Origin: Verrucomicrobiia bacterium
GTDB taxonomy: Bacteria > Verrucomicrobiota > Verrucomicrobiia > Limisphaerales > DASXHY01
NCBI GenBank assembly: GCA_035629175.1
Contig: DASPIL010000048.1
Location: 1 to 64,000, forward strand
Length of the DNA: 64,000 nt
Direction of reading: 5' to 3'
In this document: in pieces, positions 1,083 to 22,728 of the stretch
Numbering within the stretch: position 1 is the stretch's first letter
Layout of the letters: every line of letters begins with the position of its first letter
Program-made: the position numbers and the translations under genes
The notes under the pieces: generated by a model
Database searches by the model: none
What the model was told of the DNA's origin: nothing
What the model saw: the letters and a program-made list of their open reading frames with translations, nothing else

Positions 1083-3374
1083 TTAACCGTTGGTGATGCG
1101 CTTCGCGGCAGCGGCTTCTCCGGCATTGAAGCCGTAGTTCACCTCCACGATTTCGCGCTCCTCATCCTGGTCAGCATCGCCCCAATAGCGATATTCGAAC
1201 GCGACGCCGGTGGTTGGATCGACAACAACATCGTAGCTGACCAACTGCCGACGAACGCCAGGCCCGGGCGCAATGGGTGATGTGGCGACCAGAGCAGCAG
1301 ATGGCAGGACCGCCAAGCCAACGAGGTTCTCAGAGTTGTTCGGGAACCGTGGGCTGTGATAGATATCGAAACGATCGACCCGGCCCGTCGAGCCTTCACG
1401 CAGCGTCGATTCACTTCCGGACTTGTCGGCGTTCTTCAGGGATGGATCCTTTTTCAGGTTCGTGTGATAGCTCGTCAGCAAGACCAACGACCGACTTGTG
1501 TCCGGCCAGTCTGAATCGTCACAGCTTCCGCCGATGTCGATTACATCATCGGAGTCGAAAGCGTCGGCCTGCTCCAGCTTCACTGTTGCGCCGTAGGTCG
1601 CGAGCGTGAACACGCCGAGAACGTCCAGCCAGACATCCAGCGCCAACTGCTCTGCCTTAAGCTCCATCAACCGCATCGTGTTGAAGTAAGGCTGGCGAGA
1701 AAGCAGGTGACTGTAGAAGTTGAACGGCTGGTATTTACGTTTGTTGATCGTCACGTCCTTGTCGAGCGTGCTGGTGCTGGTGTCGAACTGGTATCCTGTC
1801 CCATCGGAGAAGTCCTTGCTCGTCGTGGTAAACAACGGGTAGTAGGGCACCGCGATCTTGTTGGTTCCCTCGAGCGGGACATTGTTGAATCGCGTGCTGA
1901 AGATGCTCAGCGGAAGAATCCGGCGCTTGAAGGCGCGCATTCCGTCCGAAAGGATGACATTGCGCTGCAGGTCCGAGCTGATGGTGTTTGCGGCGAGTGC
2001 TTCCCTGATCTTGTTGCGGTTTTTCGTGATCATTGCGTTGATCGCGACCGCATTCTTCTGCATCGCTTTGACATCCGGATCATTGCCGGCGAGCAGTGAA
2101 AGGATCGGCTTCCGCATCTGCGCCAATCCAGCTTCGATGTCCTTCACGCTGGCGCTTTCCTCTGAGATTTCGATCGCGACAGGTTCTGCTGGCTCCGGAC
2201 GGACGGGGTTCTGCCCGAGCGCCGCGAGAACCGCGCTGTCCTTCACTTCTCCAGACTCAGACAAAATCGCTGGAAGGGCCTTTTCCGCCTGCGCCTGGGT
2301 GATTTTGTTTGCAGCCACAAGCGCAGCCAGTTGCTTGTCAGCTTCGGCGCGCTTATTCACCTTCGCCATCTCAGCGTTGATTCCCTTCTGAATCTCGGCA
2401 GTGATGTCGATTGTGGTAGCCGGAGCTGCCGCGGCAGGTGCCGCCGGAGCCGAGGCCTGAGGTTTGCCTTTTCCGATCATCGTGACCAACTGCTCGTCGG
2501 TCAGGCTGTCGTTCGTTTCAACGCCCCACGATTTCAGCAGGGCGAGCATTTGGTTTCGGTTCATAACTATGTCTGTTTTTTTGTTTGCCCCGCCTTTAGG
2601 GGCGGAATTCGGATCAGCCGCAGCGGCAGGCAGGTGTTTGGTTTGTCCAGCGGCAGCAAGAATGAGAGAACGGCACGCGAGCGGGATGCGCTTGAAGGCC
2701 TTAGCCTCCATGCCGGAAAAATCGAGAGCGTCGAGAGCCGCAGATTCGTCGTTGACCTCGTCAGCGAGCCCCCACTCAACAGCCTCTTCGCCCGTCAGCC
2801 AGGTTTCCTCCTTCATCGCAGAGCGGATCTGCTTGTCGGTTCGCTTGGTGCGCTCGGTGTAGGCTGCGACAAGAACGTCGCCATGCTTTTCGAGCATGTC
2901 CGCCGACTTGTTGATCAGCTCGGCATACTTGCGCATGTCATCCGCGTCGCCAGAGCACCCCTCAACCCAGCTCCACGGATTGTGAATCATCCAAAGGGCA
3001 GACTTCGGAGAGATGACCTTTGCGGCCGCGAGAGGGAAATAGGAGGCGATCGAAAGCGCATAGCCGTCGATTCTGCAGGTGACGTCGCCTTTTCGCCGGG
3101 AGATGGCGTTGAAAATGGCGAGTCCTTCGTTGACCGATCCTCCCTGGCTGTTGATTCCGACGTTAACCCTTGTTCCCACGGGGACTTTATTGAGAGCATC
3201 CGTGAAGTCCTTTCCGGTAATACCGTCGTCCGACCAAAACGAGCGCCCAATTGGCCCGTGGATCAGAATCTCAGCGTCCTTGTCATCTGTCGCCGCGTTG
3301 AAAACGACCGAATACTTTCCGGCTGAAGATTTCACTCCGGCGGCATCGGCAAAAATGGGAAAATTCGTCTTCAT
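1083..3374 (-). CDS. Phage head maturation protease (ClpP-like) fused to scaffold and major capsid protein
   Basis: A 763-residue polyprotein. Residues about 20-220 match the S14 ClpP-like prohead protease: nucleophile Ser108 in GYALSIAS, His131 in WMIHNP and a likely Asp180 in RTDKQ. Residues about 271-440 are Ala/Lys/Glu-rich, as in scaffolding segments. Residues about 450-763 look like an HK97-fold major capsid protein. ATG overlaps the portal stop (3371-3374). A seven-A run and an in-frame Met271 sit exactly at the protease-capsid border, so the fusion may arise from a homopolymer error, slippage or a true gene fusion. Cleavage in the head would release the mature capsid subunit. The capsid assignment is less certain than the protease. 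Confidence 0.88.
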   Translation of the reverse strand: MKTNFPIFADAAGVKSSAGKYSVVFNAATDDKDAEILIHGPIGRSFWSDDGITGKDFTDALNKVPVGTRVNVGINSQGGSVNEGLAIFNAISRRKGDVTCRIDGYALSIASYFPLAAAKVISPKSALWMIHNPWSWVEGCSGDADDMRKYAELINKSADMLEKHGDVLVAAYTERTKRTDKQIRSAMKEETWLTGEEAVEWGLADEVNDESAALDALDFSGMEAKAFKRIPLACRSLILAAAGQTKHLPAAAADPNSAPKGGANKKTDIVMNRNQMLALLKSWGVETNDSLTDEQLVTMIGKGKPQASAPAAPAAAAPATTIDITAEIQKGINAEMAKVNKRAEADKQLAALVAANKITQAQAEKALPAILSESGEVKDSAVLAALGQNPVRPEPAEPVAIEISEESASVKDIEAGLAQMRKPILSLLAGNDPDVKAMQKNAVAINAMITKNRNKIREALAANTISSDLQRNVILSDGMRAFKRRILPLSIFSTRFNNVPLEGTNKIAVPYYPLFTTTSKDFSDGTGYQFDTSTSTLDKDVTINKRKYQPFNFYSHLLSRQPYFNTMRLMELKAEQLALDVWLDVLGVFTLATYGATVKLEQADAFDSDDVIDIGGSCDDSDWPDTSRSLVLLTSYHTNLKKDPSLKNADKSGSESTLREGSTGRVDRFDIYHSPRFPNNSENLVGLAVLPSAALVATSPIAPGPGVRRQLVSYDVVVDPTTGVAFEYRYWGDADQDEEREIVEVNYGFNAGEAAAAKRITNG
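2562..2582 (-). other. A7 homopolymer and internal ATG at the protease-capsid junction
   Basis: On the coding strand seven adenines (2582 down to 2576) are followed at 2569-2567 by TAG in the neighbouring frame and at 2564-2562 by an in-frame ATG (Met271 of the fusion). Removing one A would end the protease at that TAG after 268 residues, and the capsid gene would start two bases later. This is the arrangement expected for two separate coupled genes. No clear Shine-Dalgarno precedes the ATG. Confidence 0.7.
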
Positions 3375-7627: not shown

Positions 7628-8010
7628 TTCGGCATCTCCGGTTTTTCCAGCGTGATGAGTTGCGGTTGAAGCGGGCCGTTGAACGTCAGCACCTGGTGCC
7701 AGAGCTTGCCCGTGAACAGTAGCTTGATGCGTCCGATCATCGTCAGCTTCCAGCAGCAGATGATCTTGCCCTCGGGGTCATTGCGGAACCGATACGCGGG
7801 AAGTGGTCGATACTCCGGTTGATCTTTCGCGATGACTACCGTCTGCTCTGGAAACTCAGTGAGCGTGAGGTGCTCTCGTTCGGTCGGCAACGCGATGATT
7901 CGTTTGTTGCGAAAACGGTTGCAGTGGTAGAGCCCCGGTTCGAGAAACCGCTTCCGGGTCGCGAACCAAAACGGTCCGATCAGGTGTCGCATCATTGCTT
8001 CAGTTTTCAT
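7624..8010 (-). CDS. Conserved-type small phage protein, unknown function
   Basis: A 128-residue protein between the terminase genes, overlapping the small terminase end by 11 bases and coupled to the next gene by ATGA. The middle is basic and aromatic; the C-terminal part (about 86-120) carries CCWKLTMIGRIKLLFTGKLWH followed by LTFNGPLQPQLI. I recall this pattern from short hypothetical proteins of phages but know no function. There are no membrane segments beyond a modest hydrophobic patch around KLLF. Confidence 0.7.
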   Translation of the reverse strand: MKTEAMMRHLIGPFWFATRKRFLEPGLYHCNRFRNKRIIALPTEREHLTLTEFPEQTVVIAKDQPEYRPLPAYRFRNDPEGKIICCWKLTMIGRIKLLFTGKLWHQVLTFNGPLQPQLITLEKPEMPK

Positions 8011-8617
8011 TGGTGGTTCCTTCCGTCAGTTTTTGGAGTTGTGACCCGAGCGATTCCTTAAGCTTTTCAATTTCGCTGCGGGACAAAATTTGCAGCTTCA
8101 CTTCGTCCATCCCTTTGCCGCGGGCCGGGAGTTCGGAAACGAACACGCGGTCGAGCTCGCTGAACAACGTCGACTGCGCTTTCGCGATTCCGTCGGCTAC
8201 CGATCCGCGGTCGATGACTCGCTTCTCTTTCTCCGCGAGCTCAACGCGCTTGAGCAGCACGTCCAGCTTCTTGCTCTCCTCACCCCAGTTCACCGTTGAG
8301 TCGGTCATCATCGTGGTGAACAGCCAGGGCAGGAACTCAGTGAAGTAAACCCGGCCGTGTTTGAACGCCGGACAGCCGAGAGACTTCGCCTGTTTCAGCA
8401 CCGCGATCGGCACCGAAGCCATCGCTGAGCACTGAGTCAGCGTATCGAAGATTGGCCACTCAAATTCCTGCGAACGTGGACGTCCGGCGTTCTCGCGCAA
8501 ACCGCCTCTGGGACGTTCGATGGCTTCAACTTTCTCGCGGTCTTTTCGAGTCGGAGAAACCGTCTTGGTGGCCTTGCCGGGTTTGATTCCGGGCTTTTTT
8601 GGAGTTTTGGTTCTCAT
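8000..8617 (-). CDS. Phage terminase small subunit (Nu1-like, tentative)
   Basis: A 205-residue protein upstream of the GpA-type terminase. The first 45 residues are very basic. Residues about 50-105 resemble a winged-helix DNA-binding unit (SVPIAVLKQAKSLGCPAF, then GRVYFTEFLPWL) like that of Nu1-type small terminases. The C-terminal half is a charged helix (KKLDVLLKRVELAEKEKRV), suiting oligomerisation. The role would be recognition of the packaging site and recruitment of the large subunit. The repeat-rich stretch directly upstream could contain that site. Confidence 0.75.
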   Translation of the reverse strand: MRTKTPKKPGIKPGKATKTVSPTRKDREKVEAIERPRGGLRENAGRPRSQEFEWPIFDTLTQCSAMASVPIAVLKQAKSLGCPAFKHGRVYFTEFLPWLFTTMMTDSTVNWGEESKKLDVLLKRVELAEKEKRVIDRGSVADGIAKAQSTLFSELDRVFVSELPARGKGMDEVKLQILSRSEIEKLKESLGSQLQKLTEGTTNEN

Positions 8618-8624
8618 GGATTCC

Positions 8625-8993
8625 TTAAGCGCCTAGCGGCCCCTGCATCCCGCCAAAAAGTGTAAGAGATTCCTTACAGGGGATTCCCCTAGGCAGCAGT
8701 TGCCGATTTCGAATAAACGGCGGCGTTTTTTGCTGACCTGCCCGAAACTCGTTGCAAGCCCGGATGAGTCGCCGCAGCAATGAGCCAACTGTGCAAATGC
8801 GCGAGGCGGATTGCACCGGTGTATTGCAAAAGATTCGTGTGCAAAATAAATCCCCCCTCCTTAGAGGGGGATTTTGCACACATCTTTTTGCACACCGTGC
8901 AAAGTCCGTGATTTGCACACCAGTTTGCACACTTTGCACACCTTCTTCCTTATTCAGGTTCAAGCTGTCGATTAGATTTGTTGTAAGTGACAT
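8625..8993 (-). CDS. Doubtful ORF across the iteron region
   Basis: A 122-codon reading frame fills the gap between the primase-helicase stop and the small terminase start, so position alone favours it in this tightly packed operon. However its sequence mostly translates the TTTGCACAC repeats (SVQTGVQ, CVQNPP, LFCT) and has an unusual Cys/Arg/Pro-rich composition with no recognisable domain. I consider it more likely that the stretch is a cis-acting site and the frame is open by chance, but a short gene cannot be excluded. Confidence 0.25.
   Translation of the reverse strand: MSLTTNLIDSLNLNKEEGVQSVQTGVQITDFARCAKRCVQNPPLRRGDLFCTRIFCNTPVQSASRICTVGSLLRRLIRACNEFRAGQQKTPPFIRNRQLLPRGIPCKESLTLFGGMQGPLGA
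8791..8941. repeat. DnaA-box-like iteron cluster, candidate phage origin or packaging site
   Basis: TTTGCACAC occurs five times in the same direction (8873, 8887, 8912, 8924, 8933). Inverted copies are GTGTGCAAA at 8837 and GTGCAAA at 8791 and 8897. Three copies read as TTTTGCACA (8872, 8886, and 8838-8846 on the other strand) fit the relaxed DnaA-box consensus TTWTNCACA exactly; the rest differ at the first base. The cluster lies between the primase-helicase and small terminase genes. The phage also encodes a DnaA domain IV protein. A packaging-site role is the main alternative. Confidence 0.75.
8837..8881. other. Large inverted repeat (cruciform) inside the iteron cluster
   Basis: The left arm GTGTGCAAAA-TAAA-TCCCCC (8837-8856) and the right arm GGGGGATTTTGCACAC (8866-8881) match over 16 bp, with only a 4-base TAAA bulge in the left arm and a nine-base loop. 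The arms end in iteron copies, so the structure joins two boxes head to head. The G/C-run core would make a very stable hairpin in single-stranded DNA or RNA. It could be an origin element, a packaging signal or a terminator-like structure. Confidence 0.7.
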
Positions 8994-9005
8994 ACAGGTT
9001 GAGAC

Positions 9006-11114
9006 TTACGCGTTTTTTCCTTTGAAATAGGCATCCTCATGGCAGGTGAGCTTTTCGGACTCGAGCATGAGCTCTATAGCACTTCGGATTGTGCCATCTC
9101 CTACCCCGACCATCCTCTTGGGGCATTCCTTCGATCCTAGCCATGTCTTAAATCGCCTGACGCACTCCCTTAGACTTAAACCCTCACCTGTCGTAGGGAA
9201 TCCAGCCAACAGGGTATGGCTGTTCATGCTGGCAATCTGCTGTGGCTTCGTTGCTTTTTTCTCCTTCGGCTCCTGTGGTTCGGGCTCGTCCGGTGGGAGC
9301 ATCTGTTCCCATTTGATACCGAAGCTGGCATGGCGGAGCCAAATCGACGTTGTGAAGGTTTCGTCCGGGTTCTTGGCCCAGGCGCGCTTTCCGCGTTTTG
9401 CCATCTTTAGCTCGAATTCGGTCTCGGTGACCGGCTTGAGCATCATCACCGCCCGAGCCCAGTTCACCAACTCTGAGGACCCAAGGCCTGCGTATGCCCA
9501 ATCGATGGCGTTCCAGCCGGCGGTCTCCCGGGCCGATTTCGGCTTGCCCGTATGATGAATCCCGATCATCACGACGCCGGTTGTCTCCAGCAGTGGATTG
9601 ATCATCTCGCGCAGAAAGATCGTCACCTCTTTCTGATCGTTCACGCTGATCCCGGCAAACGAAAGCAGGGGGTCAATCCACACGATGTCAGGCTTGTCCT
9701 CTTCGATCATCCGTTGAAGCCGTTTGATGAATTCGGAGCCAACGGAACGCGTCTCGGTGCGAAACAAGATGTTTGAGTTGACCGTTTGAAAAGCCTCCTC
9801 GGCATCAAATTCGCTCAAACTGTGGGCCTTTGCGACGCCTTGAACCATCTCCGCCAGGTCGTATCGATCGTTCTCCGCCTGAACGACTAGGGATCGAAGA
9901 GGCTTGGCGCATTCAATGCCATACGCTGCAAACCCGAGCGCCCAAGCGATCGCAAATTCAAGGATCAGGGACGACTTTCCAATCCCCGACGGGCCGAGTA
10001 GCCAACCGGACTTTCCGCGGCACAGGTATCGGGTCGTTCGGCCGTCATGGAACCCGATGACGCAGTTCGGATCATTCGAGGTGTCTAGTGCCAGGAGGTC
10101 GCTGAACCTGATCGGAGGTGGCAGCCTGTCGTCGCTACTCTCTTTTGCCCACTCCGCAAACGAATCACAACCTACATTGAGTGCCAAGAGCTCCTGTCTG
10201 GCAGCGCCGCGTTCGCAGAACGGCAATCGCGAGAACCGCGACGGGTTCTTGTTCTTCTCATCCGGCTTATAGTCAGCGAAATGCGCGTAGAGCGCTTTGA
10301 CGCGATCATCGAACTCGCGTCGGTCCTTCGCGTCGACCTTCACCCACGCGTGAATTGACTTTTTGCCAGAGCTGATGATTGCCGTGCAGGGAATACGCGA
10401 TTGCAGGATGATGCTGTATTGTTCTTCGCGGCTAATCTCGTCGAACTCCAGCAGCGCGTGGCGGAATGCTGTGACGTCGGCATCCTTGGAGCCGCCGATT
10501 TTCATCGGGTTGACCGACACGAAGATTCCGTTTTTGTCTGACGTCTTGAGGAATCCGTTCGGGTTGCCTTTGTGCGCGTCGAGCTTGCGCAGCCATTCCT
10601 CGCGGGAAAGCGTCACGCCAGCGTCGCGTGGAATCTCTCGACCCTCGTCCCCGGTGCGAGCGATTGCGATCCTGATTCCCTCGGAAGGCTGAAACGCAGC
10701 CCGGAGAAACTGACGTGCTCCATCAGGCATCGGATCAGGAAGCTCGGCTGCGTCTGAGACTTCGTATCGTGGAGCCTTCTTGGCGGGTGTCGGGGCAGCG
10801 GTCGGTCTCGCAGTTGGCGGCGGGACGGCTCGCGACATCTTGTATCGCACCCCGTTCCGAATGAGCTTTCCACGTTTGGCGGGGTCAGCGCGTCGCTCCG
10901 CATCGGCCAGCTTGTGTTCAATCTCGCGCTCAGACCACGCTGGCGAACACCGCGCGGAATACTCAGCCATCAGCGGCCGCGCGTCAGACGGCGAGAGTGC
11001 AAATCCTTCGATCAGCGCCATCGCGACGGCGAACGTCTGATTGTGTCCACCATCGCCAGAGACAGCGGATGGTATTGCGTTAAGGTAACGTTGAGCTTGT
11101 TCGATGACGGTCAT
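9006..11114 (-). CDS. Phage primase-helicase (primase-like N-terminus, RepA/AAA_25 ATPase)
   Basis: A 702-residue replication protein. The N-terminus (about 1-75) has the GGH...GF.LS...CSPAWSE..IEHK pattern seen in phage primases. A middle region resembles archaeo-eukaryotic primases: an acidic LLEFDEIS motif near 223 and SGKKSIHAWV near 250 (sxH motif), then SRLPFCER. A RecA-like helicase follows with Walker A GPSGIGKSS at about 374-382 and an IVWIDPLLSF Walker B. I chose Met at 11,114 because homology-like sequence begins there; a start at 11,153 is possible. It probably unwinds the phage origin and primes synthesis. Confidence 0.88.
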   Translation of the reverse strand: MTVIEQAQRYLNAIPSAVSGDGGHNQTFAVAMALIEGFALSPSDARPLMAEYSARCSPAWSEREIEHKLADAERRADPAKRGKLIRNGVRYKMSRAVPPPTARPTAAPTPAKKAPRYEVSDAAELPDPMPDGARQFLRAAFQPSEGIRIAIARTGDEGREIPRDAGVTLSREEWLRKLDAHKGNPNGFLKTSDKNGIFVSVNPMKIGGSKDADVTAFRHALLEFDEISREEQYSIILQSRIPCTAIISSGKKSIHAWVKVDAKDRREFDDRVKALYAHFADYKPDEKNKNPSRFSRLPFCERGAARQELLALNVGCDSFAEWAKESSDDRLPPPIRFSDLLALDTSNDPNCVIGFHDGRTTRYLCRGKSGWLLGPSGIGKSSLILEFAIAWALGFAAYGIECAKPLRSLVVQAENDRYDLAEMVQGVAKAHSLSEFDAEEAFQTVNSNILFRTETRSVGSEFIKRLQRMIEEDKPDIVWIDPLLSFAGISVNDQKEVTIFLREMINPLLETTGVVMIGIHHTGKPKSARETAGWNAIDWAYAGLGSSELVNWARAVMMLKPVTETEFELKMAKRGKRAWAKNPDETFTTSIWLRHASFGIKWEQMLPPDEPEPQEPKEKKATKPQQIASMNSHTLLAGFPTTGEGLSLRECVRRFKTWLGSKECPKRMVGVGDGTIRSAIELMLESEKLTCHEDAYFKGKNA

Positions 11115-11502
11115 TGAGAGTGGTGAAGAATTCCTCGATTGAACGAACGACATGGACGGTATGACCGAGCTTCGCAGCCCACGCTTTGATCGCGAGCTGA
11201 TCGGGCGACAGTTTTCCAGTTGCAGTTTTACACTCGATCAAAAGCACGCGACCTGAGTCGCACAGGATGATGAAATCCGGCTCTCCTGCTGTTCGATGCG
11301 TGCGCTCTGACATCGCGCCGTGGAACACAACCCATCCGCGGCGACGACACTCGCAGAATATTTGTTCGTGCAGTTCAGCCTCGCGTTTGATCTTTGGTGC
11401 GAACGCGATTTCAGGGCCGTCTTTGACCGGAACCTTGATGATTCGTGAATTGTGCCGGGCGACATCGGCATCAGACCAATTGGCGAAAGGATTGCGGCTC
11501 AT
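11080..11502 (-). CDS. VRR-NUC domain nuclease
   Basis: A 140-residue protein with the compact PD-(D/E)XK fold of VRR-NUC nucleases. Candidate catalytic residues are Asp76 in GEPDFIIL and Glu90/Lys92 in LLIECKT, with HGAMSERTHRTAG just before. Stand-alone VRR-NUC proteins are common in phage replication modules and cut branched DNA. The ATG at 11,502 overlaps the helicase stop (ATGA), which decides against a 69-residue upstream extension. The downstream gene begins inside its 3' end. It probably works with the adjacent DEAD helicase as a processing pair. Confidence 0.87.
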   Translation of the reverse strand: MSRNPFANWSDADVARHNSRIIKVPVKDGPEIAFAPKIKREAELHEQIFCECRRRGWVVFHGAMSERTHRTAGEPDFIILCDSGRVLLIECKTATGKLSPDQLAIKAWAAKLGHTVHVVRSIEEFFTTLNDRHRTSSTLP

Positions 11503-13094
11503 ATCATCTGTGGTTGCTTCTTGCGCTCCTTGAGAGCTTTGAAAAATCGTCCTGCCTGCGCGGCGGTGACGTTGTCGAAATCGGTGATGCCGACCTGAGC
11601 GGACAGGCCACGCATGCGCTTCATAAGGCCGATCGCCTTCGGGGCCGCAAGCCGCGGCCGAAGGTTCTTGAAGTGCAGGTCGAGCAGTTTTGTCGCGTGT
11701 CCAAAACACGTCACAGTTGAAGGATCAATCTTGGCTCGCTTGAGCAGCTTCTCTTGCGCAACGCTGACGGCGGCAGTTTCCCACCCCATCGTGGGCTCGT
11801 AGTCGGCGGCTTCGAATGCACCATGATCGATCGCAAACTCGGCGGCTGAAAACTCGAAATTATTGGACTTCTTGTTCCGCTGTTCTTCCAACCTCTTCCT
11901 AAGTGCGATCTCACGTTGGCCGACAGCGTCGTTTGATACTTCGATCAAATCGACTTGGAGTCCTTCAGCGATATCACCCGGAATCGCTCCGGTCTTTTGC
12001 ATTGCAAGTTCGGTGATGATCTCGGCCTCGGCTTCAGTCTTTGCGACCAGGTGCGCCGGGCGGCAGACCATGTTTTTGCCTGACTGATACAGGAAGTCCA
12101 ACAGCAGCAGGTCCTCCTTTCCGGGGCAGATGCGGGTCCCTCGTCCAACGCACTGCATATAGAGTGAGATGGACTTTGTGGGACGCAGCATGACAATGCA
12201 GTCGATGGACGGCTCGTCATAACCACGGGTCAGTAGCGCTGAGTTGCAAAGGATGTCGAATTCTCCACGAGCGAAGCGCTTCAGCTTTTCGTCCCGATCT
12301 TCCGATTCGCCGTCAATGTGCTCGGCGTTCAGTCCAAGGTCCTGACAGATCGAAACGAACTTCTGAGATGTCTTGATAAGAGGCAGGAACACCATTGTCT
12401 TGCGGAACATCGCGTGGTCGACGATTCCGCGGGCGACGGCCTCCAAGTAGGGCTCGATTGCTTCGTGCAACTGATTCTTGTCGTAGTCGGAGCCGTTCTC
12501 TGTCCGCGCCATTCCGACGTTCTTCAAGTCGATCGGGAGCGGCAGCATCTGAATCTTGATGCGCGACAGAAATCCCTGATTGATCAAATCCAGCAGCTTG
12601 ATCTCGCACGCGACATTCTCATAGAAGCTGCCGAGCTCCTTCTGATCAGTCCGCCAGGGCGTAGCAGTAAAGCCACACGTGCGCGCATCGAAGTGCTTCA
12701 AGACCTTCTGCCAGATGTCTGAGACGGATTTGTCTGCCTCGTCGGCAATGACGAGTGAGAAGTGATTCTTGGACCAGTTGTCCAGTCGCCGAACCATGCT
12801 TTGCACCGTGGACACAACGACAGGCGCAGAGTGGGACGCCGAGAACTCAGCCTTTTCGGCGTCGCCGCGGATTCCAGATGTTCGCTCCAGCTTCTCCAGC
12901 GCTTGCCAGACGAGTTCGTTTTGATCGACAAGGATCAGCGTGCGCTGACTGCGCTGCCATTCGATCTTTGCCAGGTGCGAGAAGCAGACCGTCTTTCCGG
13001 ATCCAGTGGGCGAAACAACCAGCTGGCGCGAGAACTCAGCCCAGCCTTTGTTTACGGCCTCGACGATCTGCTGTTGGTAGGGACGGAGGTTCAT
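11499..13094 (-). CDS. Superfamily 2 DEAD/DEAH-box helicase
   Basis: A 531-residue DNA helicase of the phage DEXD/H type. It starts with RPYQQQIVEAV (Q-like motif), Walker A SPTGSGKT at 28-35, DEAD at 118-121, motif III TATPWR at about 143-148, and a C-terminal helicase half with LTRGYDEP and the motif VI-like QCVGRGTRICPGK. This family resembles type I restriction R-subunit and UvrB-like helicases and is frequent beside VRR-NUC and primase genes in phages. Start and stop are coupled by four-base overlaps to the methyltransferase and the nuclease. Confidence 0.9.
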   Translation of the reverse strand: MNLRPYQQQIVEAVNKGWAEFSRQLVVSPTGSGKTVCFSHLAKIEWQRSQRTLILVDQNELVWQALEKLERTSGIRGDAEKAEFSASHSAPVVVSTVQSMVRRLDNWSKNHFSLVIADEADKSVSDIWQKVLKHFDARTCGFTATPWRTDQKELGSFYENVACEIKLLDLINQGFLSRIKIQMLPLPIDLKNVGMARTENGSDYDKNQLHEAIEPYLEAVARGIVDHAMFRKTMVFLPLIKTSQKFVSICQDLGLNAEHIDGESEDRDEKLKRFARGEFDILCNSALLTRGYDEPSIDCIVMLRPTKSISLYMQCVGRGTRICPGKEDLLLLDFLYQSGKNMVCRPAHLVAKTEAEAEIITELAMQKTGAIPGDIAEGLQVDLIEVSNDAVGQREIALRKRLEEQRNKKSNNFEFSAAEFAIDHGAFEAADYEPTMGWETAAVSVAQEKLLKRAKIDPSTVTCFGHATKLLDLHFKNLRPRLAAPKAIGLMKRMRGLSAQVGITDFDNVTAAQAGRFFKALKERKKQPQMI

Positions 13095-14674
13095 GACCGC
13101 TGCGTCAAGGCGGCTCGGACAAGCGCTTTTGCGAGGTTCTTTGGAACGGCGTTGCCGATCTGCTTTACGACCTGCGTAGTGTTGCCGGTGAACTTGTAGC
13201 CACGCGGGAAGCCTTGAGCGGCTGCAAGCTCGTGCGGTTTCAACATGCGAAAACGAATGTCGAGCAGGTATTTCTCGCCGTGAATTTCGACGGTCGGCAT
13301 CACGAGTCCGAAGCGGTCTTTCGTGGTGACAGTTGGGAGCGGCTTATCGACGCTCTGTGCGTCCCCCTTGCCGTAGAAGGAAACCAGGCATGGCTGAACC
13401 AGCCTTATGCCGCGCGACGTCGTCGTGATTGTCCCGAGTGGTTCGTGAACGCTTTGGGGTGCAGCCCCGTTGAACTGGGGCACAATGAACGGCTGAACGA
13501 GTGAGATGGCGCCCGACGTTGCTACGGTTGGCAAGGGCTCAGATGCGGGACGTGGTTGTGCCCCCGATTGCTGGCCGATGACGAACGGCTCGCACAGTGC
13601 CCACTCGCCGCGATTCCCCGCCACGGTTGGCAGCGGGACATGCGTGCCGCGCACACGGCGACCGTCCCCGTTTATGTCACCTCCATTTCCGTGGGCGCAC
13701 TGAATGAGGTAAGGCTCGCACAAACCGAGGTGACCACCGCCTGCCGTCAGCGCTGGCGCTGGCTTGTCCAAATCTTTCGCGTCGCAATTGCCACGTAGAT
13801 GAACCAAGTAAGGCTCTGCTACCGCCATCGCTCCACCTTTCGCGGTGGTGATGGTTGGCAGCGGTAGATCAAAGCTTCGGACGCTGCCTTGATGCTCCAT
13901 GTGGATCGTGAACGGCTTGAGGCCAAACCTCTCAAGCCCGATCATGATCCGGTTCAGTGTCTTGTCAGCGAGCGGCTTTTTGCGGCCGTAGATGGATTTG
14001 CCTTCAAGCTTCCAATCAATGATATCCCTGGCTGGCACCCATCGCTTCCTGGCGCCGAACATATCTTCGGTCGCAACTGGGGCGTGTGTCGGCTCTGGCC
14101 AGACGATCTTGCGACGACCGCGCACCGCGTAGACAAAAAGCCGTTTCCGTGTCGTTGGGTCGCCGTAGTCCGCAGCGCAGAGAACACGCCAGTCGACGCG
14201 ATAGCCGAGCGACTCAAGGCAGCTCACCCAGGCTGAGAAGACTTCGCCCTTTTTCGTCTTGAGCGGCCGGCCGTCAGTCCCGATCGCGCCCCACGAAACA
14301 AACTCCTTCACGTTTTCGATCAGGATGATCGACGGCCGCAGAGCTTCAGCCCATCGAACGACACACCACGCGGTTGCGCGGGACTGATCATTGATTGGCT
14401 TTCCACCGCGAGCGATCGAGTGATGGGTGCATTCCGGTGAGGCCCAGAGGATGTCCAGCTCGCCTTCCCCGTAGAGATCGCGAGGGTTCAGCGCGTCGAG
14501 CGATGCGCAGAGATGGCGCGCGTCCGGATGGTTTTGCGTGTGCGTCGCTACGGCAACCTCCCAATGATTTATTGCGGTAAGGTCGCACTCGTGGCCGAGT
14601 TCCTGACAGGCTTCAACAAGGCCCGTGGACGTTCCACCAGCTCCGCAGAAAAGGTCGGCAGCTTTGAGTTTCAT
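13091..14674 (-). CDS. DNA (cytosine-5) methyltransferase with repeated target-recognition region
   Basis: A 527-residue C5 methyltransferase. Motif I DLFCGAGG is at 7-14, catalytic Cys82 lies in SPECTHHS, motif VI ENV at 120-122, motif VIII TTRKR at 174-178 and motif X GNAVP at 507-511. Between motifs VIII and IX/X, residues about 270-460 hold six repeats of 32-42 residues, each beginning with a P-L-P-T-(I/V)-T-T-like turn and most continuing to an EP(Y/F)-like step. Phages use such enzymes to protect DNA from host restriction; no matching endonuclease is adjacent. Overlaps couple it to both neighbours. Confidence 0.92.
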   Translation of the reverse strand: MKLKAADLFCGAGGTSTGLVEACQELGHECDLTAINHWEVAVATHTQNHPDARHLCASLDALNPRDLYGEGELDILWASPECTHHSIARGGKPINDQSRATAWCVVRWAEALRPSIILIENVKEFVSWGAIGTDGRPLKTKKGEVFSAWVSCLESLGYRVDWRVLCAADYGDPTTRKRLFVYAVRGRRKIVWPEPTHAPVATEDMFGARKRWVPARDIIDWKLEGKSIYGRKKPLADKTLNRIMIGLERFGLKPFTIHMEHQGSVRSFDLPLPTITTAKGGAMAVAEPYLVHLRGNCDAKDLDKPAPALTAGGGHLGLCEPYLIQCAHGNGGDINGDGRRVRGTHVPLPTVAGNRGEWALCEPFVIGQQSGAQPRPASEPLPTVATSGAISLVQPFIVPQFNGAAPQSVHEPLGTITTTSRGIRLVQPCLVSFYGKGDAQSVDKPLPTVTTKDRFGLVMPTVEIHGEKYLLDIRFRMLKPHELAAAQGFPRGYKFTGNTTQVVKQIGNAVPKNLAKALVRAALTQRS

Positions 14675-15096
14675 ATCGCAGCAGGTGCCGACTTGATCTT
14701 GTTCCGCAAATGCTCCACGTCAGAGCGATCCCCAGCGCATGTCTCGCATCTATCGCTTACGGTTTGGATTGCATGAAGGACGGTTCCATGATCGCGATGG
14801 AATTGACGCCCAACCTCGCTGATGCTTTGGTTCGTGAATTCACAACTCAAAGCCATTGCAACCTGTCGAGCCCACGCGACTCTTGGCGTTCGGTTGCGGA
14901 CATCAATCACGGTCACGGATAACCCGTAGTGATGCGCGACGAGCTTTTTGATCTCGTCGATTGGCTGCGGGTTGCTCGCCGGAGTGCGTCGCCTGAGCCA
15001 TTTTGTGAGGGCGGCTTCATATCTCTCCGCTGCGGCGGTTAATTCCGCTGTCGCAACGCGGACAGACTCGATGGAGCGTGAGGCTGTGATGGTCAT
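14671..15096 (-). CDS. Stand-alone DnaA domain IV-like DNA-binding protein
   Basis: A 141-residue protein. Residues about 45-125 match the C-terminal DNA-binding domain of DnaA: IKKLVAHHYGLSVTVIDVRNR, WARQVAMALSCEFTNQSISEVGRQF, and the signature RDHGTVLHAI at about 101-110. The AAA+ ATPase of DnaA is missing; the first 40 residues are an Ala/Glu/Arg helix. It may therefore bind DnaA-type boxes without ATP control, either to mark the phage origin or to compete with host DnaA. A set of TTWTNCACA-like boxes lies in the same prophage at 8791-8941. Coupled to the methyltransferase by ATGA. Confidence 0.88.
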   Translation of the reverse strand: MTITASRSIESVRVATAELTAAAERYEAALTKWLRRRTPASNPQPIDEIKKLVAHHYGLSVTVIDVRNRTPRVAWARQVAMALSCEFTNQSISEVGRQFHRDHGTVLHAIQTVSDRCETCAGDRSDVEHLRNKIKSAPAAI

Positions 15097-15097
15097 G

Positions 15098-15304
15098 CTA
15101 ATAGCCTCTCCCTGTGTTCTTCGCGTTCTCGACGGCGGCGATTACTTCCCGCGCAACCAGCGTGACTTCTTGATCAAGAACCTTCAGCACGATTAGGTCG
15201 CGATCGTTCCAATGACTCTCGATTCGCACGTGCGGCAAGCTTTCGAGTTGCTCCCGAGACTGGCCGTGAGACTCGACGACTGTCAGCTCGCTGGATGTTT
15301 TCAT
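15098..15304 (-). CDS. Small phage protein, unknown function
   Basis: A 68-residue protein between the helicase-methyltransferase fusion (ATGA overlap at 15,301-15,304) and the DnaA-like gene (one base gap). The second half (IVLKVLDQEVTLVAREVIAAVENAKN) looks like a strand plus an amphipathic helix. It has no Cys cluster, membrane segment or known domain. Tight packing supports it as a real gene. Confidence 0.65.
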   Translation of the reverse strand: MKTSSELTVVESHGQSREQLESLPHVRIESHWNDRDLIVLKVLDQEVTLVAREVIAAVENAKNTGRGY

Positions 15305-17829
15305 GTTCCCACCACCTCCTGACCGGCGCGTTGAAGATCGAAGAGCGTCGGCATGCAGCGCTCAGCTTCAGCCTGCTCGCAGTAGCCAACACCGCAGCGC
15401 CAATACTCCGGTGAAAGCTCAATCCCCCAGCCGATGCGATGCAGGTGAACCGCGCAGTATGGCACCGTGAAGATTCCAGCGAACGGATCCAGAACGATCT
15501 CGCCCGGGTTGCTGTAGCGGTTGATCAGCCGGTTGACGATGTCCAGTTGCAGCGGGCAGACGTGGTTCTCTTCGTTGCGCTTCTGCTGCTCGCTGTTCAG
15601 ACAGTTGATTCGGCTGATGTCGGTCCAGATTCCAGGGTGCAGAGATATCGGCGGAAACAGCATGAAGCTGGCAGGCAGGTAGTCACGCGCCTCCAAAGCG
15701 GCCGCAATATCGACATGCTCCTGCCAGTCGTAAACGTGATTCTTGGAATGCTCCTGCCAGAGCTTCCGCACATTATCCATCGGCATGTTGACGAGCAGTT
15801 CAGGGTCAGGAAGGCGGTTGCCGTTGGACTTCCAAAACCCGGCGGCATCGACCTGCCAATGCGCGCGGAGGTAGATATTTTTGTCCTTCGTGACGGGCAG
15901 GTCGGCGTAGGCGTTCGACAGATCGGTGTGAGGCTTCCGAAAGAGCAGAACGTACTCAGGCATGCCAACGCCCATCTTCGTGGAGTCTTTCGCGTTCTCG
16001 CTCCAACCGAGTCGGTAGGTCTGCGCGTTCTCGCGGACGACGTCGGTGTCGATCGTGATTCGACCGAGGAAGAAGAAGCCGTGCTTTTCAAAGCAATCCG
16101 CTGTCTTGTCACTGAAACGATCAACGGTCGGAACTCCAGTCCCATGCTGGCCACCGAAACGGATTCTGTCTTTGACGTGAATGCAGGCCAGACGCCCTGG
16201 CTTCAGCACGCGGAGCAGATGCGGCACAAGGAAGTCCATCTGCTTGAAGAAATCCGAGTTGTCAGGATTGTGGCCGAAGTCGTTGAAGTTCGGTGAATAC
16301 TCATACTGGTTCCCGAACGGTATTGAAGTGACGATCTGATCAACCCGGTTGTCAGTCCATGTTTGCAGTTCGAGAACGCAGTCGTTGTGGATGGCTCGGA
16401 ACTTTTCGCTGGCCGATTCGACGCGGTCGCAGCCGATTGAACGTTTGATTTCCATAGTTTTGAGGTCGAGGCGGAATTTGCGGAGAAGCTCGGACATCTT
16501 GGCAACCAGCTCGTTGTGCTGTGCCCATTTCTGTTTCAAGACTTCAACGACTGGGTCCTCGGACTCGGTGTAAATGAAGTGGATGTTGACCTGTCGCGGC
16601 TGCTGGAAGCGCTGAATCCGATGCACAGCCTGAATGACGTCGTTGAACTTGTAGCTCGCTCCAAGGAAGATGGCGTCGCAGCAATGCCGCTGGAGATTGC
16701 AGCCCGAGCCAGCAAGGACGGGCTTCGAGGCGAAGTGTTGAAAGTCGTCGGAGAATTCGCCGCGCGAGAACCGCAGGATGATTTCTTCTCGTTCGTCGAG
16801 GTCCTGCGAGCCGTAAACGGTTCTAACGGCCGGTACCAGTTGCTCGATTGCGCGTCGCTCGTCTTCGAGGTCGTGCCAGATGATCCAGTGCGCGTCACGA
16901 TTCTGCGCGATGATTTCTTGCGCCTTCGCGAGTCGAGACACAATGCTGTCGCGCTTCACCTCGGCCAGCTCTTTTAGACCGCTGGACTTGTCGAGGAAGA
17001 GCGCGTGCTGTCCAGCGCGATCGACCATTGCCCAGGCTTTCTTGTGATCGACTGCGACCGAGTGCCAGTGAACTCGAAGCGGTGGAAGCTCGTAACCCTC
17101 ATCGCTGTAACCGAGGTCCGAAGGCCGCTGCATGAACACAGCCCACGATGCGAGCCACGTCCAGAACTGTTCCTCCATGTGCGGGTGCAGGGTGAGGTCG
17201 CCAGCCTTTTTCGGGTTGCGTTTGAAGAACCTGGTAAGCGCCTGCCCGGTGTCCATCACTCCGAGAAAGCCGCCGTAATGGATCAGCTCTTTGTGGCGGT
17301 TTGGCGAAGGCGTCGCGGTGAAGACGAATCGATATGGAATCGCCGAGCCGATCTGGAGAAAGGTCTGATACGTCTTCGATCCGAAAGAACGCAGGACCGA
17401 AGACTCGTCCAAGCCCCAGCCGCAGAACCGGCCGTCGAGCGTGATCTTCCCATCTCGCACCGGCTCGTAATTGCAAATGACGACCCGCGTCTGCGCTGCG
17501 TCGATTTCCGCATCGGTCTGGCAGAAGGTCATTGCAACGTCCATGACCGGCCCGTCTTCGTGGATGAACTGATGCCGGACGCCGAGCGGGCACGTGATCA
17601 GGAACTTCTTTCCCGGGTTGGCTTCTACTGTCCACTTGGCGACCTGCAGGTGCGTGCGAGTCTTACCAAGACCGAAGGCCTTGAAGCATGCACGGCGACC
17701 TCCGCGGACCATCCATTCAGCGATATCCCGCTGATGCGGAAATAGCGACGGGTGCGCTTCGCTCGGAGGCGAGAAACCTTGATGCTGCGCGCGCGGCATC
17801 TTGGACAGAATGAAGTCTTGGTAGGTCAT
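15301..17829 (-). CDS. SNF2-type helicase fused to N4/N6 DNA methyltransferase
   Basis: An 842-residue two-part enzyme. The N-terminal half is a SNF2-like translocase: LFPHQRDIAEW near 30-39, Walker A AFGLGKT at 51-57, degenerate box II DES at 141-143, TATP at 171-174 and motif VI-like QAVHRIQRFQQ at 400-410. The C-terminal half is a beta-class amino-methyltransferase with SIPF (502-505) in place of the usual (D/S/N)PP(Y/F), LLRVLKPGRLACIHVKD, and the SAM-binding LDPFAGIFT near the C-terminus. I recall similar fusions in other phages. A start at 17,922 is rejected because 17,829 overlaps the upstream stop (ATGA). It probably methylates phage DNA while moving along it. Confidence 0.9.
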   Translation of the reverse strand: MTYQDFILSKMPRAQHQGFSPPSEAHPSLFPHQRDIAEWMVRGGRRACFKAFGLGKTRTHLQVAKWTVEANPGKKFLITCPLGVRHQFIHEDGPVMDVAMTFCQTDAEIDAAQTRVVICNYEPVRDGKITLDGRFCGWGLDESSVLRSFGSKTYQTFLQIGSAIPYRFVFTATPSPNRHKELIHYGGFLGVMDTGQALTRFFKRNPKKAGDLTLHPHMEEQFWTWLASWAVFMQRPSDLGYSDEGYELPPLRVHWHSVAVDHKKAWAMVDRAGQHALFLDKSSGLKELAEVKRDSIVSRLAKAQEIIAQNRDAHWIIWHDLEDERRAIEQLVPAVRTVYGSQDLDEREEIILRFSRGEFSDDFQHFASKPVLAGSGCNLQRHCCDAIFLGASYKFNDVIQAVHRIQRFQQPRQVNIHFIYTESEDPVVEVLKQKWAQHNELVAKMSELLRKFRLDLKTMEIKRSIGCDRVESASEKFRAIHNDCVLELQTWTDNRVDQIVTSIPFGNQYEYSPNFNDFGHNPDNSDFFKQMDFLVPHLLRVLKPGRLACIHVKDRIRFGGQHGTGVPTVDRFSDKTADCFEKHGFFFLGRITIDTDVVRENAQTYRLGWSENAKDSTKMGVGMPEYVLLFRKPHTDLSNAYADLPVTKDKNIYLRAHWQVDAAGFWKSNGNRLPDPELLVNMPMDNVRKLWQEHSKNHVYDWQEHVDIAAALEARDYLPASFMLFPPISLHPGIWTDISRINCLNSEQQKRNEENHVCPLQLDIVNRLINRYSNPGEIVLDPFAGIFTVPYCAVHLHRIGWGIELSPEYWRCGVGYCEQAEAERCMPTLFDLQRAGQEVVGT

Positions 17830-18101
17830 ACCACGAAAAGCTTCTGCACCCGGATGAAAGCAAACCGCGCTGTTTTGGTGTTCCGCACCGTGTCGCCTGC
17901 AAGCAGTTTGGCTCTGTGGCACGCTTGCTCCTGAGATTCAAACGGGATCGGGAGCCCTTTTTCTTTCCGGAAGAATTCGATGCAAGGCTTCCGCGTGCGC
18001 AAATCGATTGCCGTCACAATCCAGGCTTCGACATCCTTGAGAACAGGCTCCGGAACGCGAGTTACATCGCATTCTTCAACGGCATGAGTTTCAATGTGCA
18101 T
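17826..18101 (-). CDS. Small phage protein, unknown function
   Basis: A 91-residue protein overlapping the helicase-methyltransferase start by four bases. It contains a mixed strand/helix pattern (EAWIVTAIDLRTRKPCIEFFR, then a helix SQEQACHRAKLLAG) and ends in a hydrophobic FAFIRVQKLFVV. No known domain is recognised. The 100-base gap upstream (18,102-18,201) holds only a possible 20-codon frame starting GTG at 18,205, too short to call. Confidence 0.65.
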   Translation of the reverse strand: MHIETHAVEECDVTRVPEPVLKDVEAWIVTAIDLRTRKPCIEFFRKEKGLPIPFESQEQACHRAKLLAGDTVRNTKTARFAFIRVQKLFVV

Positions 18102-21512: not shown

Positions 21513-21731
21513 TTAGTCAGCGAGAATCTTGTCGTGCTCCGAGGACAATTCTTCTGTTGTCATCGCGTGGAATTTGGTCGCGTTACTCAGCGTCCGACCG
21601 TGAATCGCAAGCAGCGTGTCGATAGTCATTCGACGGGCGTGATCCTCGATGCGCAAATATGGATCGCGGTCTCGAGCTGTGACTGGTAGCGCAGAGGTTG
21701 CGTGAACCGTTGTGCTTTGTTCAGTTTTCAT
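21513..21731 (-). CDS. Small phage protein, unknown function
   Basis: A 72-residue protein whose start overlaps the radical SAM gene end by 11 bases. It has a Thr/Ala-rich first third, then RIEDHARRMTIDTLLAIHGR and a short acidic helical end. No known domain. It is kept because it fits the close packing and the frame is otherwise free of competing genes. Confidence 0.55.
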   Translation of the reverse strand: MKTEQSTTVHATSALPVTARDRDPYLRIEDHARRMTIDTLLAIHGRTLSNATKFHAMTTEELSSEHDKILAD

Positions 21732-22728
21732 CGTTCACCTCCGCGTTGAGGTTTTCCGGGCGATAGTTCGCAGCCTCCCATTGCTCCCACGTGAAGCGCT
21801 TATCGTAGGCGCCAATTAGCCAGCGCTGGAACCCGACAAGCTCAGGGGTGCGAACAAATGGCATTGGGTATGGCCGCGCTCCCCATTCCCGTAGCTTGCG
21901 CACCCGGTAAAGCCTGTCCTCCGAGGTCTCTCCAGGCCAAAAGCCAACGAGCATGTAAACCATGACGTGATCCGGCTTCACCCCGTATTTTTTAAGCCTG
22001 TCCAATCCCTCAAACAGCCTGGCTTCGTCTTTACGATTGTCCCAAGCGGTATAGATGCGCTTGGCCTTCATGTCGTCGGCCCGGTAATCGATGCTCGCGA
22101 GTGCTTCCGCTGCCTCATCTGTCAGGAACCGGGCATTGATACCCTGATTGAAACTGACCTTGAAACCGCCTTCGCGAATCTCCGCGATCCGATCGCGCCA
22201 GTGCGGTTGCCCAAAGAAGTCATTATCCAACAGAATCAACTCACGCGGCCACGGTTCGCCCCGCCAAATATCATGGATCGTGTTTTCCTCGCGCATCGCG
22301 CCTTCCTTGCGAGGAACCACGCAGAACGAACAGCGAAGCCGACATCCGCGTTGAGTAAACCCAATGCTTTGTCGGCAGTTCGGGTAAATCGAATAATCCT
22401 GCTTGGTTGTTGTGATCCCGTGCGCTTCCAGAGTAGAAGCCACATCAACACCAGTTCCGCCGACAACCGCATTCGGAAAATGCTCAATGAGTTTTGAGAC
22501 GGATGGGCGGGACTTTTCGAAGATTGCGGAGCCGTAAACGTGGGTAGGCGCATCCCACAACTGGCGCTCAGGGTTTCCAGTCCATCGCAGTTCGACCGAA
22601 TCCCCGCGCTGCTTGTGGTGTGCAGCGATCCGCATCGCCGCAATATTGGGTACCTTTCCGTCAAGTTGAAACACCAGGACGCGGGAAGGCGCACCGTTCC
22701 CGTTCTCCGTTGGCTTTTCAGTGGGCAT
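21721..22728 (-). CDS. Phage-encoded radical SAM enzyme
   Basis: A 335-residue protein with the radical SAM cluster motif CX3CX2C at Cys129, Cys133 and Cys136 (RGCRLRCSFC). Residues about 15-110 resemble the N-terminal Rossmann-like, cobalamin-binding-type region often joined to radical SAM domains (VFQLDGKVPNIAAMRIAAHHK, VVGGTGVD). Later strands include ILLDNDFF and VSFNQGINARFL. The layout resembles B12-binding radical SAM proteins. The substrate is unknown; base, tRNA or protein modification are all possible. It lies among small early genes next to the recombination module. No 7-deazaguanine or other base-modification genes are nearby. Confidence 0.88.
   Translation of the reverse strand: MPTEKPTENGNGAPSRVLVFQLDGKVPNIAAMRIAAHHKQRGDSVELRWTGNPERQLWDAPTHVYGSAIFEKSRPSVSKLIEHFPNAVVGGTGVDVASTLEAHGITTTKQDYSIYPNCRQSIGFTQRGCRLRCSFCVVPRKEGAMREENTIHDIWRGEPWPRELILLDNDFFGQPHWRDRIAEIREGGFKVSFNQGINARFLTDEAAEALASIDYRADDMKAKRIYTAWDNRKDEARLFEGLDRLKKYGVKPDHVMVYMLVGFWPGETSEDRLYRVRKLREWGARPYPMPFVRTPELVGFQRWLIGAYDKRFTWEQWEAANYRPENLNAEVNDEN

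Follow-up and report, generated by a model that had tools for sequence, protein, structure and literature searches.

The iteron array and its neighbourhood

The window, i.e., the whole stretch of 64,000 bp analysed here from a Verrucomicrobiia contig, contains a prophage with a cluster of short repeats at 8789-8941. As the first-pass annotation had it, the cluster lies between two minus-strand genes, a primase-helicase gene (9006-11153) and a putative small terminase gene (8000-8617). The latter had no Pfam match and was assigned from its position and from tblastn relatives adjoining large terminases. The iteron TTTGCACAC is present in five exact direct copies on the plus strand (8873-8881, 8887-8895, 8912-8920, 8924-8932 and 8933-8941). 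The three inverted copies counted earlier resolved into an exact one at 8837-8845 and two degenerate ones, TTTGCACAG at 8789-8797 and TTTGCACGG at 8895-8903, all on the minus strand. The three matches to the relaxed DnaA-box consensus TTWTNCACA reported before were also recovered: TTTTGCACA is a full match and occurs at 8872-8880, at 8886-8894 and in reverse at 8838-8846, and the other three direct copies differ from the consensus at base 1 only. TTWTNCACA is present in three of seven copies and the shorter TNCACA in all seven. Exact copies of TTTGCACAC occur six times in 64 kb, five direct and one inverted, all inside the cluster at 8837-8941, while shuffling of the first 24 kb yielded a mean of 0.28 copies and never two together. 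Pairs of TTTGCACA at most 30 bp apart were confined to the cluster at 8789-8941 in the whole 5.4-Mb genome. The iteron cluster is real and beyond chance. An Rfam search gave zero matches at gathering score.

Within the array, a hairpin of the form GTGTGCAAAATCCCCCTC-TAAG-GAGGGGGGATTTATTTTGCACAC was identified at 8837-8881 (minus strand), C-rich in one arm and G-rich in the other and capped by the innermost inverted iteron pair. Its outer arms are the inverted iteron at 8837-8845 and the direct iteron at 8873-8881, and as single-stranded DNA it folds with -17.7 kcal/mol (z -8.5). An AT-rich stretch adjoins the iterons at 8930-9019, a local minimum with a GC content of 0.38-0.40, and is a candidate unwinding element. 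The hairpin and the layout common to relatives had both been overlooked in the first-pass annotation. Elsewhere in the window, the early genes of the prophage include one for a radical SAM protein (21721-22728, minus strand), and a protein of 763 amino acids (1083-3374, minus strand) combines a ClpP-like protease with a probable major capsid protein, its Pfam match being limited to the protease part.

The layout in relatives and a separate cos-like site

In a scan with the helicase domain, viral relatives numbered 80 and genomic ones 11, and within the phylum a relative of the helicase was present in 41 of 388 genomes. Removal of near relatives at 70 % identity left 50 independent helicase lineages. 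Most relatives have short repeats behind the helicase gene with a lineage-specific sequence, e.g., GTGCGCGGAAA in L087, GTGGGTAAA in L088, GTGGGCGGAAA in L089, GTGTCCCA in L091 and TAGTGCAGTAA in the L135 group. A strict test asked for a C-rich/G-rich hairpin just behind the gene, bordered by an inverted pair of a repeat that occurs at least three times: 26 of the 50 lineages passed, about half failed, and among 250 shuffled regions a single one passed. The hairpin tips were mostly TTAA, TAAA, TTTA, TTA or CGTA. Matching hairpins in L007, L013 and L094 fold equally strongly with different inner stems. A C-rich motif resembling CCCCCTACCCC follows just past the hairpin in L087-L089, L091, L093 and L076, and is absent from the window, L007 and L013.

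A hairpin at the boundary of early and late genes may also be read as a transcription element, a terminator accompanied by iterons that act as the operators of a phage regulator. Read on the minus strand, the window hairpin is followed by ATTTATTTTG and obtains a terminator-like score. However, a T-rich stretch follows the hairpin in just 6 of 31 hairpins of relatives, so most of these are not intrinsic terminators, and terminator-like sites were no commoner than in shuffled sequences. Several iterons and the inverted caps would be left unexplained as well, and we regard this function as quite improbable.

The element is associated with the helicase gene and not with the terminase gene. In L007 it occupies the same place next to a primase-helicase of 62 % identity, with a terminase of 25 % identity. 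In L013 (7549-9162) and L053 (6137-7750), an apparent DnaB-type N-terminal domain has replaced the AEP primase part, without loss of the helicase, of its C-terminus or of the proposed iteron origin; the element of L013 lies behind this altered helicase gene. The 9-kb fragment L011 encodes a related terminase, and neither iterons nor a relative of the primase-helicase were found on it. These arrangements reveal that the terminase changes while the element stays with the helicase.

This bears on a possible role of the repeats as a cos or pac packaging site recognised by the small terminase, as their position shortly upstream of the gene for the putative small terminase might suggest. The element remained with the primase after replacement of the terminase, and a separate motif, AAGGAATCTYTT, lies nearer to the terminase, with contig ends mapping there. 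Of 127 family loci, 27 contain this motif, with a single copy in each record; control loci totalling 0.97 Mb yielded one occurrence. It sits ahead of the late genes, at 12472 in L007, 9399 in L013, 11647 in L086, 12467 in L091 and 8488 in L098, besides other records, and in the window as AAGGAATCTCTT at 8664-8675 (minus strand), where it is a neighbouring element and not part of the proposed origin. Seven contigs, several of them from related phages, terminate 44-45 bases from the start of AAGGAATCTYTT. Two contigs from one metagenome, L098 and L012, have an exact overlap of 14 bases, AGGTAGTCCGACAT, at this point, as cohesive ends would. The region of AAGGAATCTYTT, which marks the cos side in relatives, is likely a cos site with 14-nt cohesive ends that is common to phages with different terminases. 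By analogy with L012 and L098, a cos site with a 14-nt cohesive end is predicted for the window near 8632-8645 (minus strand), which would place it immediately ahead of the gene for the putative small terminase and at a distance of about 200 bp from the iterons. A packaging site at the repeats was largely refuted by the separate cos-like site and by the linkage of the element to the primase, and is to be seen as highly improbable.

Two candidate readers of the iterons

The primase-helicase, the proposed initiator, combines an AEP-like primase part with a RepA-like AAA_25 helicase. AAA_25 was its only Pfam match (70.3 bits), and the protein matched PHROG 2597, DNA primase, with an E-value of 1e-48. 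The iteron element is placed directly downstream of its gene, next to the coding sequence of a C-terminal domain (9009-9320, minus strand). An AlphaFold model of this domain (pLDDT 88.7) displays helices followed by a two-stranded wing, in the order H-H-H-H-E-E. The best Foldseek matches were winged helices (Fur, IclR, GntR and AraR), with weak E-values all above 0.07. Six phages, including the window prophage, have iterons of the TGTGCAA type. Among all 1716 six-member subsets of 13 phages, these six are the most alike in their C-terminal 62 residues and, at the same time, the least alike in their helicase cores. Thus the C-terminal domain and the iteron type co-vary against the phylogeny of the core. 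One of the six, L076, has TGTGCAA iterons and a C-terminus of weak similarity. Since the C-terminal coding sequence adjoins the iterons, both may have recombined jointly without any contact between protein and repeat. Still, from the co-variation and a strong precedent in SaPI Rep and SCCmec Cch2, we hold that the main reader of the iterons is probably the winged-helix C-terminus.

The second candidate is a protein of 141 amino acids encoded at 14671-15096 (minus strand). Its description as a DnaA DNA-binding domain without ATPase was upheld: PF08299, the DNA-binding domain IV of DnaA, matched residues 46-113 with 73.6 bits (cut-off 31.5), and an AAA+ domain is absent. Hereafter, the protein is referred to as DnaA-IV. 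It has 46 % identity to domain IV of Escherichia coli DnaA over 69 residues. Alignment to this domain for the box-contact residues, as proposed in the first-pass annotation, revealed the retention of R399, R407, Q408, R432, D433, H434 and T436. K415 is replaced by C and T435 by G, the latter being present also in the DnaA of the host, which is encoded in full length on another contig. The helix RDHGTV is identical in both proteins. In E. coli DnaA, the exchanges T435M and R399A impair box binding (PMC5742627). Beside the DnaA-IV gene are genes for a C5-cytosine methyltransferase and for a large protein in which an SNF2-like helicase is fused to an N6/N4 methyltransferase (13091-14674 and 15301-17922).

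The distribution of DnaA-IV was compared with that of the iterons. Four of the six TGTGCAA phages encode it (the window, L007, L053 and L092); in the other two, L013 and L076, the iterons stand alone, and neither Pfam nor a home-made profile detected DnaA-IV. Among the other records of the helicase family searched, no DnaA-IV was detected, and none lies beside the helicase in 29 genomes with other-iteron relatives; these absences are soft because many records are fragments. At the level of genes, DnaA-IV is associated with the TGTGCAA iteron type, with a Fisher p of 0.0002 for an approximate lineage count (0/31) and of 0.0025 for a conservative one (0/15). The DnaA-IV gene lies at three different places across its carriers, and the window protein is closer to bacterial DnaA (44-46 % identity) than to the proteins of L007, L053 and L092, which resemble one another. 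These similarities suggest at least two acquisitions. The three positions and the probable two or more sources speak against hitch-hiking of DnaA-IV by linkage.

Outside the family, an unrelated pair of phages, L036 and L042, has TGTGCAA iterons together with DnaA-IV. In a sample of phages with TGTGCAA arrays drawn blind to the gene, DnaA-IV was present in 3 of 50 and, for a scrambled iteron, in 0 of 39, a difference that was not significant. Unrelated phages with a free DnaA-IV (L003-L006 and L180-L186) had no DnaA-box clusters in the stretches read, and a general rule that DnaA-IV means own boxes was rejected. L187 was excluded as a carrier, being a piece of a bacterial chromosome filed as phage.

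The first-pass annotation had proposed a two-part origin system in which DnaA-IV fires the origin from its own boxes. The origin reading, the identity as a true DnaA-IV and the association of gene and iteron stood; the part of DnaA-IV as initiator did not. In that role the protein would be the main iteron binder, marking the origin and bringing in the helicase, like RepC of RSF1010. The PF08299 score far over the cut-off, the conserved contact residues, the helix shared with the host DnaA, the association with TGTGCAA iterons and the DnaA-box character of the repeats (TTWTNCACA in three of seven, TNCACA in all) are in its favour. But the layout is present in dozens of relatives, the majority, without DnaA-IV, and two phages have TGTGCAA iterons and lack the gene. 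In L092, D433 and H434, the two chief recognition residues in E. coli DnaA, are replaced by S and P, and in L007 H434 is replaced by V, with unchanged iterons in both. The helicase C-terminus tracks the iteron better, and we consider DnaA-IV unlikely as the true initiator. It looks accessory because it is not universal and because one of its carriers has a degenerate recognition helix; most likely, it acts on the same boxes and is not the sole initiator. Binding of DnaA-IV to the iterons of the window is about as likely as not.

Alternatively, the repeats may capture the host DnaA as initiator or titrate it, with DnaA-IV tuning the competition. The window has three sites that match the relaxed box, next to an AT-rich flank, and the recognition helix is common to the host DnaA and the phage protein. 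Relatives with repeats unlike DnaA boxes keep the layout, however, and seven boxes are few for a titration. A DnaA-box consensus of the host was not derivable, as close pairs of TTATNCACA were missing in the genome. Capture or titration of host DnaA has, in our estimate, a low probability.

The proposed origin and known systems

The iteron element is very probably the replication origin of the prophage. The primase-helicase would be the initiator, and the origin would follow its gene directly. The winged-helix C-terminus may bind the TGTGCAAA iterons and gather the helicase there, upon which the adjoining AT-rich stretch would open and the helicase could load. On the exposed strand, the iteron-capped hairpin may form and offer a site for landing or priming. 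The DnaA-IV of the prophage would have an accessory part, binding to these same DnaA-box-like iterons and assisting or regulating initiation independently of ATP control. The analysis revealed the sequence anatomy, the layout kept with other iterons, the co-variation of C-terminus and iteron and, within the family, the restriction of DnaA-IV to the TGTGCAA type; origin activity, binding by either protein, unwinding and priming at the hairpin are our inferences. The full model for the region 8789-9005, comprising the origin, the helicase C-terminus as reader and an accessory DnaA-IV, has a reasonable though smaller probability than the origin itself. The GC skew of L007 has a turning point 11 bp from the hairpin, with a sign opposite to the expected one; in the window no such coincidence was observed. 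A further step is possible and rather speculative: the iteron may have drifted to a DnaA-box-like sequence, DnaA-IV may have been captured at least twice, and both readers may share or compete for the boxes, forming an ATP-independent switch shielded from or directed against the host DnaA.

Among the open-access papers, we found none on this origin family or on a phage DnaA-IV. The layout is recurring and apparently undescribed, and apparently works like known origins with iterons downstream of a helicase gene. The helicases Rep of SaPI and Cch2 of SCCmec use their C-terminal domains to bind iterons that immediately follow the genes encoding them (PMC7581432). The position of the iterons is the same in the window, and the C-terminal binding known there is proposed here. 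The helicases differ: the present one is of the AAA_25 kind, fused in the window to an AEP-like primase part and in L013 and L053 to an apparent DnaB-type N-terminus, and does not belong to the helicase families of SaPI Rep or Cch2. The iteron-capped hairpin and, in some phages, DnaA-IV are additions of the present family. The window system would work like the origins of SaPI Rep and Cch2, but has a helicase of another family and so is not a member.

RSF1010 divides the work between RepC, which binds the iterons, RepA, which unwinds the DNA, and RepB', which primes at the ssi stem-loops (PMC4234260). A RepA-like AAA_25 helicase, an AEP-type primase, iterons and stem-loops, the priming sites of RSF1010, are common to its oriV and the window, whereas in the window helicase and primase are united in one protein and a single hairpin is embedded among the iterons. 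Most relatives of the window system have no identifiable separate iteron-binding protein. By analogy, DnaA-IV could be a stand-in for RepC; this RepC-like candidate is absent from two of the six TGTGCAA phages. The plasmid pRN1 requires a stem-loop that lies downstream of its primase-helicase gene (PMC4234260). The position directly downstream and a gene product with a C-terminal winged helix are alike in both systems, but pRN1 has an SF3 helicase and a 100-nt stem-loop without iterons, and the window an AAA_25 helicase with iterons.

A short PF08299 protein near replication or recombination genes is also encoded by the Olleya phage Harreka_1 and the Tenacibaculum phage Gundel_1; unlike the window, the stretches read of these phages had no DnaA-box cluster. 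The AEP primase/RepA-helicase modules of the distant Firmicutes phage relatives EFC-1, FP_Lugh and Javan85 have the same gene order and an HTH-like C-terminus, and behind the primase gene, likewise, short repeats within 244-319 bp of noncoding DNA. In EFC-1, a small hairpin is flanked by an inverted repeat pair. The iterons of these modules differ from those of the window, protein identity is about 30 %, and no DnaA-IV was noted in the regions shown.

These comparisons define a recurring origin layout in phages and prophages of Verrucomicrobiota, with repeats of a similar type in some Firmicutes phages. The repeat sequence shifts between lineages together with a small recognition domain. Such matched pairs of initiator and origin are suited to study the evolution of specificity and to make compatible replicons. 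The captured DnaA-IV presents a testable case of a phage that would borrow the DNA reader of the host initiator minus its ATP switch. The phage contig L041 (157 kb) has six separate triple arrays of GTGTGCAA over 2 kb, a number far above that of any other record.
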